Source of the DNA: Franzmannia pantelleriensis
Lineage (GTDB): Bacteria > Pseudomonadota > Gammaproteobacteria > Pseudomonadales > Halomonadaceae
Assembly: GCF_900102875.1 (NCBI RefSeq)
Contig: NZ_FNGH01000020.1
Coordinates: 1-50,537 of the forward strand
Direction of reading: 5' to 3'
DNA length: 50,537 bases
Shown: positions 3,171-16,887 of the stretch, piece by piece
Numbering within the stretch: position 1 is the first letter of the stretch
How the letters are laid out: each line of letters starts with the position of its first letter
Program-made: the position numbers and the translations under genes
The notes under the pieces: generated by a model
What the model was told of the DNA's origin: nothing
Databases searched by the model: none
What the model saw: only the letters and a program-made list of their open reading frames with translations

Positions 3171-3187
3171 TTGGCACGCTGCCTGCA
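3171..3187 (+). promoter_or_regulatory. Sigma-54 promoter of glnA
   Basis: TTGGCACGCTGCCTGCA matches the -24/-12 consensus TGGCACG-N4-TTGCA with one change, and GG and GC are correctly spaced. The predicted start is near 3198, giving a leader of about 120 nt. Together with the NtrC sites at 3005-3101 this is a nitrogen-regulated glnA promoter. Confidence 0.85.
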
Positions 3188-13492: not shown

Positions 13493-13803
13493 TGCCAGAC
13501 CTCTATCGGCGCAAGTCAAGGACTTATAACCCTAGTGTTACAGATATCGGCCTATCTTGCCCAATATTGAGGGTCATTTTCCGCATTTTTTGAACACTGT
13601 TCGCCAATGCGCAGATCAGCCGCGTCCTCGTACCGAACATCGTGGCCCCCTCTGACACACCGACCCGGCGTGTCGAATCTGCCCCATGTGTCATATGTCG
13701 CCACCCGTTTCGCCGTTTTGCGCGGGGACATGGGGGCTACCTGGCATGCCGGGGTCTTTGCAAGTTAATGTTTTTTAAGGATTTTTATTTTTCATGGCAT
13801 GAG
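13493..13803. other. Regulatory region upstream of the acidic-protein genes
   Basis: Non-coding as far as I can tell; a 63-residue frame at 13642 has no ribosome site or recognisable product. It holds several dyads: GAACACTGTTC (13592-13602), TGACAC/GTGTCG arms at 13653-13658 and 13670-13675, and CCCCATGTGTC (13682-13692) facing GGGACATGGGG. They could be sites for an activator of the sigma-54-like promoter at 13804. Confidence 0.45.
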
Positions 13804-13820
13804 GTGGCATGGCCGCTGCA
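13804..13820 (+). promoter_or_regulatory. Candidate sigma-54 promoter of the acidic-protein gene
   Basis: GTGGCATGGCCGCTGCA fits TGGCACG-N4-TTGCA with two changes and the correct GG-to-GC spacing. The predicted start, near 13831, leaves a leader of about 108 nt before the ATG at 13939. Confidence 0.6.
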
Positions 13821-13938
13821 ATACTCAGGGTGAGAGACGAACAGCATCGAAGCGACGCAGCAAGTTCGATTCGATACCTAGCAATAGGCGGTACGTCTTC
13901 ACACTCAGCAAGCACTGAAGACAAATGGAGGTGCGAGC

Positions 13939-14229
13939 ATGATGTCCAAGGAATTTCTCAAGAAGATCGGTATTCTCGGCGTTTCTTTCGGCCTGATCGC
14001 CAGCCCGCTGGCCTTCGCCGACATGCACGACGAAGAGTACGAGCCGCAGGACCCGGCGCCGCAGGAAGAGCCTGCACCGGATGTTGACGGCAACGATGAA
14101 TTCGGTGGCACCGATTACGACACCGAATATGAGGATGAGGAAGAAGAGTTCACCTTCGATGACGAGGAAGAGAACGAAGAGGAAGAGTGGGAAACGCCTG
14201 AAGAGGACGACGAAGAGCAGTCCTGGTAA
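13939..14229 (+). CDS. Small acidic secreted protein, paralogue 1
   Basis: A 96-residue protein of unknown function. Residues 1-27 are a signal peptide (MMSKEFLKKIGILGVSFGLI then SPLAFA, cleavage before DMHDEEYEPQDPAPQ). The mature 69 residues hold about 37 Asp/Glu and no Lys or Arg, with runs such as YEDEEEEFTFDDEEENEEEE, and end in EEQSW. The composition suggests an unfolded polyanion, possibly binding cations or cationic peptides in the periplasm; this is inference. The start has GGAGG upstream. Paralogue 2 follows 109 bp downstream and paralogue 3 after a terminator. The intervening GGCGCCC-AGGGAC-GGGCGCC hairpin (14246-14265) has no T run. Confidence 0.82.
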   Translation: MMSKEFLKKIGILGVSFGLIASPLAFADMHDEEYEPQDPAPQEEPAPDVDGNDEFGGTDYDTEYEDEEEEFTFDDEEENEEEEWETPEEDDEEQSW

Positions 14230-14338
14230 CAGCGGCTGACTCGGGCGCCCAGGGACGGGCGCCAGCGACCACAGGGATGCTTTGCTTCACTCGCTATCGA
14301 CAGCGTCATATGGCGCACCCCAATGGAGGATGTACGAC

Positions 14339-14632
14339 ATGATGTCCAAGGACTTTCTGAAGAAAATCGGAATTCTGGGTGTTTCGTTTGGCTTGATCGC
14401 CAGCCCACTGGCCTTCGCCGACATGCACGACGAAGAGTACGAGCCGCAAGACCCGGCGCCGCAGGAAGAGCCGGCACCTGATGTCGACGGTGGCGACGAG
14501 TTCGGCACCAATGACGACGAATTCGACACTGAGTACGAAGACGAGGAAGAAGAGTTCACTTTCGACGAAGAGGAAGAGAACGAAGAGGAGGAGTGGGAGA
14601 CTCCTGAGGACGATGAAGAGCAGTCCTGGTAA
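14339..14632 (+). CDS. Small acidic secreted protein, paralogue 2
   Basis: A 97-residue close copy of paralogue 1: the signal peptide differs only at residue 5 (Asp for Glu), and the mature part differs mainly by a small insertion (TNDDEF) near residue 58 and the loss of one acidic residue near the EEQSW end. It is a recent tandem duplicate by appearance. ATG at 14339 has GGAGGA eight bases upstream; longer in-frame starts lack this. No promoter is evident between copies 1 and 2, so they are probably cotranscribed and end at the terminator at 14735. Function unknown. Confidence 0.82.
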   Translation: MMSKDFLKKIGILGVSFGLIASPLAFADMHDEEYEPQDPAPQEEPAPDVDGGDEFGTNDDEFDTEYEDEEEEFTFDEEEENEEEEWETPEDDEEQSW

Positions 14633-14734
14633 TCATTGAACCGTTCCCTTGCAAGATGATGCTGCCCAGGGAGGGGCGGTGGGCTCTCCCCCTCGAGCCC
14701 CAGCGTGTGTCCACTGCACGTTGATCACAGCGCT

Positions 14735-14768
14735 GCCGCTTCCGGCCACCCCCGGAAGCGGCTTTTTT
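14735..14768 (+). terminator. Rho-independent terminator after acidic paralogues 1-2
   Basis: GCCGCTTCCGG (14735-14745) pairs perfectly with CCGGAAGCGGC (14752-14762), followed by six T. It implies that paralogue 3 has its own promoter in 14769-14865, where I see only weak -10-like AT-rich sequences. Confidence 0.93.
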
Positions 14769-14879
14769 ATTGGGCAGCACTTGTACAGGTTGCCATATAG
14801 TTCTACAGTATTTGTTCGTCAGGTGTTCGTGGTCATTCATCACACGCTGACGCTAATGGATTAACGAGAGGTAAGTGAC

Positions 14880-15245
14880 ATGATGTCCAAGGAATTTCTC
14901 AAGAAGGTAGGTATCGTTGGTGTGTCATTCGGTCTGATTGCCAGCCCGCTGGCTTTTGCCGACATGCACGACGAAGGGTACGAGCCTCAAGATCCGGCGC
15001 CGCAGGAAGCGACTGACGTCGAAACCACTACCGACAGCGGTATGGGCTCCGCCGACGGCGATGCGACTCACGGCGGCGTCGGCACTGACGATCCGACCAT
15101 GGGTACCGAATCGGCCCCGGAAATGGATGACATCGATTCCGCAGGTGACGGATCTTCTTCGCCCGAACACGGCGGTGTAGGGTCCGATGACCCCGATCAC
15201 GGGACCGAGTCGCTGCCGGACTTCGAAGATGATGACGCCACCTGA
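14880..15245 (+). CDS. Small acidic secreted protein, paralogue 3, with internal duplication
   Basis: A 121-residue protein sharing the signal peptide and the first 16 mature residues (DMHDEGYEPQDPAPQE) with paralogues 1 and 2, then diverging. The remainder holds two copies of the unit HGGVG(T/S)DDP-x2-GTES-xP, near residues 64-82 and 99-117, separated by an acidic linker, so it is less extreme in charge and richer in Gly, Thr and Ser. AGAGG lies nine bases before the ATG. A terminator follows. Function unknown; probably periplasmic. Confidence 0.8.
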   Translation: MMSKEFLKKVGIVGVSFGLIASPLAFADMHDEGYEPQDPAPQEATDVETTTDSGMGSADGDATHGGVGTDDPTMGTESAPEMDDIDSAGDGSSSPEHGGVGSDDPDHGTESLPDFEDDDAT

Positions 15246-15268
15246 ACAGCGTGATGCGTTAATGATGA

Positions 15269-15293
15269 GCCGCCCCTGCCGGGCGGCTTTTTT
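15269..15293. terminator. Terminator between acidic paralogue 3 and ghrB
   Basis: GCCGCCC (15269-15275) pairs with GGGCGGC (15281-15287), followed by a run of T on the plus strand. It lies between convergent genes and mainly serves the plus-strand gene. Confidence 0.88.
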
Positions 15294-15297
15294 GTGG

Positions 15298-16287
15298 TTA
15301 GCCGCCGCGGCGCGACGTCCATGCGGCCTCGTTGACCAAGTTGATCGGGCGCTCGCCATTGAGTGCCAGGGTCAGGTTGTCGACTGCCCGCTGGGCCATG
15401 GCGGTGCGCGTTTCGTGGGTTGCCGAGCCGATATGCGGCAGTGCCACGACATTGGCCAGATATGGCAGCGGTGAGTCTGCCGCCAGCGGTTCCTGTTCGA
15501 ACACATCCAGCCCGGCGGCGTGTAGCTGGCCGTTCTGCAGTGCGTCGATCAGCGCAGCTTCATCGACCACCTTGCCGCGGGCGATATTGATGAAGATGGC
15601 GCCGGGCTTCATCAGGCCCAACTCGCGTGCGCCAATCAACTTCTCGGTGTCGGCGGTGAGCGGAACGGTCACGCAGACGAAATCGGCCTCGGCCAGCAAG
15701 GCGTCCATGTCACGGCGCCGAGCACCGAGTTCGGCTTCGAGCTGGGGTTTGGGCGAGGCGTTGGAGTAGAGAATGGGCATATTGAAGCCCAGCGCGCCCC
15801 GCCGCGCGATGGCGGCACCGATACGGCCCATGCCGATCAGGCCCAGGGTCTTGCCGTGTACGTCGCTGCCGAACTGCGCCTCGCCGATGCTCTCCTGCCA
15901 GTCGCCGCGCTTGATGAAGTCGGCAAGCTCTACTACCCGGCGTGCGCTGGCCATGATCAGCGTAAAGGCGGTGTCGGCGGTGGTCTCGGTGAGTACGTCC
16001 GGGGTATTGCAGAGCAGGATATTGCGCTCGGTGAGCGCCTCGACCGGGTAGTTATCGTAGCCCACCGAGATCGTCGCCACTGCTTCGAGCTGAGGCGCGC
16101 TGTCCAGCAGCGCCGGCGTCAGCGGTAGGCCGGCGCCGATTACGCCGTGGGCTTGGCTCAGCGCCTCACGAAAGGCCGGGTCGTCGGTGGAGGCGAGGTC
16201 GGCGAAGTAGTCGACGTGAAAGTCGTGCCGCAGCGCCGCGAGCTGACTGTCGCTGAGGCGTCGATAGGCCACGATACGTTTGTTCAT
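15298..16287 (-). CDS. ghrB: 2-hydroxyacid dehydrogenase, glyoxylate/hydroxypyruvate reductase B-like
   Basis: NAD(P)H-dependent reductase of glyoxylate, hydroxypyruvate or 2-ketogluconate. The 329-residue protein is standard length and closely resembles E. coli GhrB: TISVGYDNYPVEAL (73-86), TPDVLTETTADTAFTLIMAS (94-113), the Rossmann GMGRIGAAIARR (about 151-162), Arg in NIARGKVVDE, the Glu in DVFEQEPL and the catalytic His in LPHIGSATHETR. The start has GGGGAG seven bases upstream. It converges with the acidic-protein cluster across a terminator; a palindromic repeat lies upstream at 16330. Exact substrate is an inference. Confidence 0.93.
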   Translation of the reverse strand: MNKRIVAYRRLSDSQLAALRHDFHVDYFADLASTDDPAFREALSQAHGVIGAGLPLTPALLDSAPQLEAVATISVGYDNYPVEALTERNILLCNTPDVLTETTADTAFTLIMASARRVVELADFIKRGDWQESIGEAQFGSDVHGKTLGLIGMGRIGAAIARRGALGFNMPILYSNASPKPQLEAELGARRRDMDALLAEADFVCVTVPLTADTEKLIGARELGLMKPGAIFINIARGKVVDEAALIDALQNGQLHAAGLDVFEQEPLAADSPLPYLANVVALPHIGSATHETRTAMAQRAVDNLTLALNGERPINLVNEAAWTSRRGG

Positions 16288-16578: not shown

Positions 16579-16887
16579 ATGCGATTGCCCCCCTGGTGGA
16601 CCACCGTTGGTCTTGCTGCCGCACTGCTGCTGGGCACCACTACCCTGGTACACGCCGACCAACCGATGAGCGATGCCGAACTCGAGGAAGAGTACGGCAT
16701 CAAGGCCGGCTCGCTGATACGCGATGATGATGACGACGACGGTGAGGCGCGGGACGAGGATGCGTCGAGCCATGATAACGGCGACGATGAGGAAGAAAGC
16801 CCAGAGGCCGGCACCGGTGGCTCGGGTAGTCCTGAGGAGGCCCACGACGGTAGCGAAGCGGAGCAGAATAACGAAGAGGACGACTGA
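16579..16887 (+). CDS. Small acidic secreted protein (fourth, distinct)
   Basis: A 102-residue protein of unknown function with a signal peptide (WWTTVGLAAALLLGTTTLVHA, cleavage before DQPMSDAELEEEYGI). After a short predicted helix (about 30-45), the rest is Asp/Glu-rich: RDDDDDDGEARDEDASSHD, then Gly/Ser/Glu-rich to EQNNEEDD. It shares composition and export with the cluster at 13.9-15.2 kb, but its signal peptide and sequence are not alignable with them. AAGGAG lies nine bases before the ATG. A hairpin terminator follows. Confidence 0.8.
   Translation: MRLPPWWTTVGLAAALLLGTTTLVHADQPMSDAELEEEYGIKAGSLIRDDDDDDGEARDEDASSHDNGDDEEESPEAGTGGSGSPEEAHDGSEAEQNNEEDD

Follow-up and report, generated by a model that had tools for sequence, protein, structure and literature searches.

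Closest described systems

In Escherichia coli, the QseE/QseG/QseF system (GlrK/GlrR) consists of a kinase, a sigma-54 response regulator and a co-encoded exported lipoprotein; its target there is an sRNA, GlmY, with a UAS and a sigma-54 promoter with IHF (PMC6075780). A comparable arrangement is described for ZraPSR, in which a sigma-54 two-component pair lies beside an exported accessory protein that is itself under sigma-54 control (PMC4987338).

The locus described here belongs to Franzmannia pantelleriensis (assembly GCF_900102875.1) and lies on contig NZ_FNGH01000020.1, positions 1–50,537 of which are referred to as a whole as the window. Like QseEGF, the halomonad locus also has lipoprotein genes, and in one group of genomes (g11) its promoter module precedes apparent non-coding transcripts. 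Unlike QseEGF, its main targets are acidic exported proteins, its enhancer-like site (UAS) differs from TGTN12ACA, the lipoprotein of the F. pantelleriensis locus is low-complexity and Met/Asp-rich and is encoded apart from the window cluster, and the regulator scores 361.9 bits against a GlrR NCBIfam cut-off of 763. As in ZraPSR, a sigma-54 two-component pair adjoins the gene of an exported accessory protein. The halomonad targets differ from those of ZraPSR in that they match no Pfam or NCBIfam family, ZraP-type families included, contain no Cys, are modelled as disordered and lie at several loci; the regulator (368.0 bits, ZraR cut-off 760) and the kinase (168.7 bits, ZraS cut-off 479) both score below the curated level. 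AtoS and AtoC are the top-scoring NCBIfam relatives of the kinase (200.3 bits) and the regulator (430.2 bits), below their respective cut-offs of 646 and 714; the AtoS match is confined to the kinase half (residues 248–477), and an acetoacetate gene is absent among the named kinase neighbours. Against PEP-CTERM PrsR, the regulator reaches 364 of the 502.6 bits demanded by TIGR02915.

The system thus resembles QseEGF and ZraPSR in arrangement, but both proteins score far under the curated thresholds of ZraSR and AtoSC, and the regulator under those of GlrR and PrsR. As judged by sequence, it is a distinct form of a known regulatory kind, with a new effector family. Taken as a whole, the cluster is probably the output of a dedicated two-component, sigma-54-driven, envelope-sensing regulon that exports disposable protein polyanions.

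Tandem genes and upstream elements in the window

The following features were located in the window.

13685–13703, + strand: enhancer-like site (UAS) CATGTGTCATATGTCGCCA, the only exact match in the window
13755–13804, + strand: AT-rich stretch between UAS and promoter, a possible IHF bend
13805–13820, + strand: sigma-54-type (-24/-12) promoter TGGCATGGCCGCTGCA, matching the consensus
13939–14229, + strand: family gene copy 1, 96 aa, C-terminal Trp, pN/pS 0.095 in the mature part
14339–14632, + strand: family gene copy 2, 97 aa, preceded by a gap with neither a UAS nor a strong sigma-54 site
14735–14770, + strand: terminator-like hairpin and T run 3' of copies 1 and 2 (stem-loop 14735–14762)
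14779–14818, + strand: conserved block upstream of copy 3, from a three-genome alignment
14880–15245, + strand: family gene copy 3, 121 aa, divergent tail with two HGGVG(T/S)DDP..GTES units
15267–15293, + strand: terminator-like hairpin and T run 3' of copy 3 (stem-loop 15267–15289)

A preliminary description of this DNA had proposed three tandem genes with a nearly identical 43-residue start and different tails. All three open reading frames are present, and within the first 43 residues, 42 positions are identical between copies 1 and 2, 40 between copies 1 and 3, and 39 between copies 2 and 3. The tails bear out the proposal for copy 3, which diverges after the head; copies 1 and 2, by contrast, differ little from end to end (94% identity). 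The mature parts (residue 28 onward) of copies 1 and 2 were likewise correctly described as over half Asp/Glu and free of Lys and Arg: acidic residues make up 37/69 (54%) in copy 1 and 38/70 (54%) in copy 2, giving net charges of -37 and -38 over 69–70 residues, and 29/94 (31%) in copy 3, which also lacks Lys and Arg. The suggestion that the head anchors the protein was not borne out, as the head reads by eye as an ordinary cleavable Sec signal peptide with an A-x-A end and without a lipobox, and the lipoprotein is the product of a separate gene on another contig. In a structure model of copy 1 (pLDDT 57.9), the signal helix gives way to coil, so that the protein models as disordered after the helix. 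The regulatory module at 13685–13820, a fourth paralogue on another contig and a linked two-component system are additions to the earlier account.

Since the gap between copies 1 and 2 contains neither a UAS nor a strong sigma-54 site, copy 2 is presumably co-transcribed with copy 1. Three terminator-like hairpins were counted in the region, against a mean of 1.7 in shuffles. The conserved block at 14779–14818 could represent a separate, non-sigma-54 promoter for copy 3; a scan of 13500–15400 returned no sigma-70 consensus site that passed.

The 5' leader of copy 1 (window 13834–13970) is near-invariant: in an alignment of five congeners that includes the first 10 codons, 123 of 144 columns do not vary. 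A structured leader was considered and rejected, as the window sequence folds no better than its shuffles (z 0.00). Further downstream, at 16579–16887, the window holds another acidic exported reading frame with an unrelated head (MRLPPWWTTVG..), which is 69–82% identical to its counterparts in three named congeners (L123, L124, L125) and has no Pfam or NCBIfam match at E ≤ 1.

A halomonad family with fixed ends and free middles

A search with copy 1 identified the fourth paralogue of the same genome, on contig 13, and a search with the head recovered relatives in other genera. A profile search of the head in Halomonadaceae had been suggested as a check. Built from 30 sequences, the profile matched 23 of 81 Halomonadaceae genomes at E ≤ 1e-3, of which 21 were strong matches at E ≤ 1e-7. 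The count of 21 leaves out two weak matches (G098, 2.3e-5; G081, 3.5e-4), and weak additional head matches in G001 and G036 were also dropped. Among 274 genomes across the class, the F. pantelleriensis genome itself was the sole match at E ≤ 1e-5. A scan of named genomes yielded 116 relatives, the best 80 of which (78 loci) were kept; these belong to Halomonas, Billgrantia, Vreelandella, Litchfieldella and Aidingimonas. Together with the window, the 78 named loci supplied a set of 100 ORFs encoding 98 distinct proteins, which was drawn by similarity and is biased to the window type.

None of the 98 distinct proteins contains Cys, 67 are without Lys and Arg, the median net charge is -33, and 84 end in Trp. 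In a broader first set of 45, the C-terminal residue was Trp in 18 and Phe in 3. The earlier picture of a constant export head joined to variable and mostly anionic tails holds across the family, in which some tails are more than half Glu/Asp and others Gly-rich. Weakly acidic members exist, including L034 with 9% Asp/Glu and members in G014 and G036 with 6 to 9 Lys/Arg; they weaken a pure polyanion role, and charge may not explain everything. L034 (G026:C1:1041069-1041203) joins the usual head to a Gly-rich tail of 130 residues, 60 of them Gly.

Pfam and NCBIfam returned no match at E ≤ 1 for copies 1–3 or the fourth paralogue, in agreement with the earlier statement that no known domain could be recognised, and homologues were found outside this strain, in several genera. 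Comparison of the members supports a family defined by its conserved head, with an often conserved C-terminus and a free middle, which is apparently uncharacterised. No publication on the acidic family or its regulator was found among the matches listed by a full-text literature search that covers few subscription journals.

Spread by mobile elements was considered and set aside, as a plasmid collection yielded one record, a 1.83-Mb Halomonas replicon. In that replicon (Halomonas sp. PA16-9), NZ_CP040452.1:311124-311210 encodes a partial head of 29 residues with 76% identity and no annotated feature beneath it.

These compositional features bear on a different account of the same regulon, in which the proteins would be ZraP-like periplasmic chaperones or holdases whose acid-flanked, exposed aromatics bind unfolded or amphipathic clients. 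The layout of a sigma-54 two-component system with an exported accessory protein is indeed ZraP-like (PMC4987338), and aromatics do occur within the acidic runs, together with the common C-terminal Trp. The missing Pfam and NCBIfam matches, the lack of a predicted fold and the distance of kinase and regulator from the ZraS/ZraR cut-offs make such a function unlikely.

A UAS and sigma-54-type promoter precede many family operons

The promoter TGGCATGGCCGCTGCA fits the sigma-54 consensus, which has 2 full matches in the whole window, against 0.21 expected. The second match, TGGCACGCTGCCTGCA, lies at 3172–3187 on the + strand. The UAS has the form CATGTG(T/C)CA followed by an invariant CA eight bases on; this CA, at UAS positions 18–19, is present in 86/86 sites even though it lay outside the search pattern. 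With 1 mismatch allowed, the UAS has 3 matches in the window against 2.0 expected and is not significant there by itself. Across the whole F. pantelleriensis genome, a search for CCATGTGTCATATGTC that allowed up to 2 mismatches gave two sites, one upstream of the window operon and one upstream of the contig-13 paralogue operon, where the element lies at G000:C13:174837-174856.

Both UAS and promoter are present upstream of 86 of the 100 family ORFs when 50–160 bp are allowed between them. The spacing falls at 99–103 in 34 ORFs and at 109–112 in 51, with none at 104–108 and a single outlier at 64. Such a separation of the two groups, by roughly a helical turn, would be required by an activator that works through DNA looping. 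The 86 module-bearing upstreams have a mean AT content of 0.75 in the 50 nt that precede the promoter, compared with 0.51 in the leader. A stricter composite was found in 67/100 real upstreams and in 1/20000 first-order Markov resamplings. The 14 ORFs without the module are 6 inner genes, copies 2 and 3 among them, and 8 first genes, of which L136 has a short upstream. In the broader set of 45, a UAS was found in 17 and a strong sigma-54-like site in 17, within 400 nt, the latter score being reached by 2% of shuffles; the low share is partly due to the counting of inner genes and of genes behind a lipoprotein gene.

In five congeneric genomes, all 7 UAS sites with at most one mismatch precede family genes. 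Over the 81 genomes, up to 2 mismatches gave 45 sites, against 8 for the reversed control; 16 of the 17 sites with 0–1 mismatch lie upstream of family operons, and most of the 28 sites with 2 mismatches are not near family genes. G062, which has neither the family nor the kinase described below, carries a UAS with one mismatch and no adjoining family gene. The exact composite occurs at 41 sites in the 81 genomes, and the reversed pattern at 2: 37 of the 41 sites are in 18 of the 19 genomes with that kinase, and 4 sites are in 4 of the 62 others. Family operons lie downstream of 29 of these 37 sites, with coordinates compared by eye. In G023, the kinase is present and the exact composite absent.

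The F. pantelleriensis genome has one RpoN gene. The -24/-12 promoter, the upstream enhancer site and the RpoN gene that characterise the sigma-54-dependent promoter class are all present, an assignment made from sequence.

One histidine kinase and sigma-54 regulator pair travels with the family

Contig 13 (G000:C13) carries a histidine kinase gene and a sigma-54 response regulator gene that point towards genes for a lipoprotein and a family protein, a layout repeated in other genera. Nineteen of the 81 genomes encode the kinase N-terminus at 67% identity or above, and all 19 carry the family. Of the 21 family genomes in all, two (G016 and G017) are without the kinase, and neither has the exact composite. 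The Fisher values (1.4e-16 and 2.9e-13) come from related genomes and are not independent probabilities. In genera g9 and g20, where genomes vary, family and kinase are jointly present or jointly absent. A distant kinase (40–43%) occurs in six genomes, all without the family.

Eighteen two-component regions were fetched; the kinase genome G003 is not among them. In 17 of the 18, a gene with a GFG..(M/L)P motif is convergent to the regulator, as against none of three regions around the distant kinase. The motif is carried by a family protein or, in five of six g11 genomes, by a lipoprotein. In G070 the motif is present with no reading frame displayed, and in G026 the signal peptide of the motif-bearing protein is altered. 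The one region of the 18 that departs from this layout is that of G035, where the family gene with the motif is on the same contig but at a distance of several kb.

The sensor region of the kinase was modelled with a pLDDT of 81, and the WalK and CitA sensor domains are among its top PDB matches (E 2.8e-8 to 1.1e-5, with modest TM-scores of 0.25–0.65). From this model the region may be a domain that we term Cache/PAS-like.

Comparison across genomes supports the conclusion that module and family travel with one histidine kinase/sigma-54 response regulator pair. The regulatory part of the regulon reading is, on these sequence patterns, very likely correct.

Betaine uptake or catabolism genes lie near the kinase in 16 of the 18 regions and in none of the three distant-kinase regions; betaine genes are common in halomonads generally, which tempers the association. 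They encode glycine-betaine monooxygenase subunits, BCCT carriers or a ProV/ProW-type transporter, and were named by scoring one representative per cluster: GbcA, GbcB and ProV exceed NCBIfam cut-offs and BCCT exceeds its Pfam cut-off, while ProW falls under the NCBIfam cut-offs.

The named neighbours bear on two further possibilities. The proteins could act as decoys for cationic antimicrobial peptides or polyamines, either within the periplasm or extracellularly, a function for which the charges of copies 1 and 2 and their complete lack of Lys and Arg would be well suited. The recurrent named neighbours of the kinase are betaine genes, however, these searches recovered the family from halomonads alone, and the attraction between polyanions and peptides is weak at high salt; we regard the decoy function as improbable. 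A surface or matrix component, such as an anionic hydration or calcium-binding layer, would fit the repetitive low-complexity tails, some of them Gly-rich, and the separate lipoprotein gene at the kinase locus. It appears distinctly unlikely in view of the small size of the proteins, the lack of any cell-wall or anchoring domain by Pfam or NCBIfam in the scanned proteins, and the absence of an exopolysaccharide gene among the named kinase neighbours.

The reading frames are maintained as proteins

Among copy-1 orthologues from five congeneric genomes, pN/pS was 0.095 in the mature part, 0.065 in the acidic tail (residues 52–96) and 0.43 in the head, the last value resting on few synonymous changes. 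Across genera, the head gave a pN/pS of 0.24 with a pS of 0.50, which is near saturation, over 74 of the 100 ORFs picked for an ungapped MM..SP head. By these ratios, the family is under purifying selection as proteins.

Low complexity and the lack of a named relative would also be expected of functionless reading frames kept by linkage. That explanation is scarcely credible given the low ratios in the tail and in the cross-genus heads (the within-genus head being the higher value), the conserved ends and the promoter module in 86 of the 100 ORFs.

Conservation of the head at the DNA level was considered separately. In copy-1 orthologues, pS was lower in the head (0.063) than in the mature part (0.218), yet the codon-level test was not significant (3/23 against 12/59 variable conserved-residue codons, p = 0.54), and the proposal was dropped.

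Proposed mechanism and role

In the regulon reading, the kinase would sense an extracytoplasmic cue through its Cache/PAS-like domain, and the phosphorylated regulator would bind the UAS and activate RNA polymerase-sigma54 across the AT-rich bend. Sec would export the product, which is expected to remain disordered and highly anionic. Copies 1 and 2 would be the effectors, and copy 3 would be under a different promoter. The common C-terminal Trp may serve as a docking or recognition end, and the GFG..MP protein and the locus lipoprotein probably report back to the kinase, by analogy with QseG or ZraP.

The composition of the proteins, their restriction to halomonads in these searches and the betaine genes near the kinase suggest an ionic or osmotic role in the envelope. 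The product could then be a soluble polyanion, produced on demand and located in the periplasm or at the surface, that balances cations and hydration as salinity changes; we put this polyanion role forward tentatively, as the likeliest of those considered. Osmoregulated periplasmic glucans are a soluble, exported, anionic envelope polymer, and the halomonad product would be their protein counterpart. It differs from them in being a protein and not a sugar, and the likeness lies in the proposed working mode.

A bolder and rather doubtful reading is that halomonads have a dedicated, envelope-sensing sigma-54 three-component system, made up of a Cache-type kinase, an enhancer-binding regulator and a reporter (the GFG..MP protein or lipoprotein), which fills the periplasm with large amounts of disposable, disordered protein polyelectrolytes that have fixed ends and variable middles, and that structured non-coding RNAs in g11 are under the same control. 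If true, it would represent a protein answer to a problem that other bacteria meet with anionic periplasmic glucans.

The regulon reading assigns a predicted sensor, activator, binding site and promoter to what were anonymous acidic reading frames, and makes the function of extremely acidic exported halophile proteins testable through one regulator. Should the polyanion role hold, it would point to a protein-based conditioning of the periplasm in salt. The conserved GFG..MP motif suggests a specific way in which a kinase might receive a signal from an exported disordered protein. In halomonads, which serve as industrial hosts, a native regulated sigma-54 promoter that drives exported proteins might be useful.

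Apparent non-coding transcripts behind the same module in g11

Six g11 genomes (G014, G070, G100, G080, G036 and G090), called Vreelandella-like by their resemblance to the named loci L195–L197, have the UAS and sigma-54 module in front of apparent non-coding transcripts with intrinsic terminators. The transcripts, at L256, L257, L258, L259, L260 and L263 and at L261 and L262, fall into two sequence groups, and no ORF longer than 77 aa lies within about 2 kb on the transcript strand.

A reading of these transcripts as Csr/Rsm sponges was rejected. The Rfam scores (rsmX 25.8 of 56 bits; RsmY 24.5 and 20.5 of 57) are far under gathering, the RsmY matches fall on the strand opposite the transcript, and the GGA counts in all eight transcripts lie inside the range of 500 shuffles each.

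A blastn search with the second group gave no match in the F. pantelleriensis genome. This group has a 48–50-nt element in common, at 84–92% identity, with sequence at the 3' side of the family genes of L183, L195, L196 and L197.
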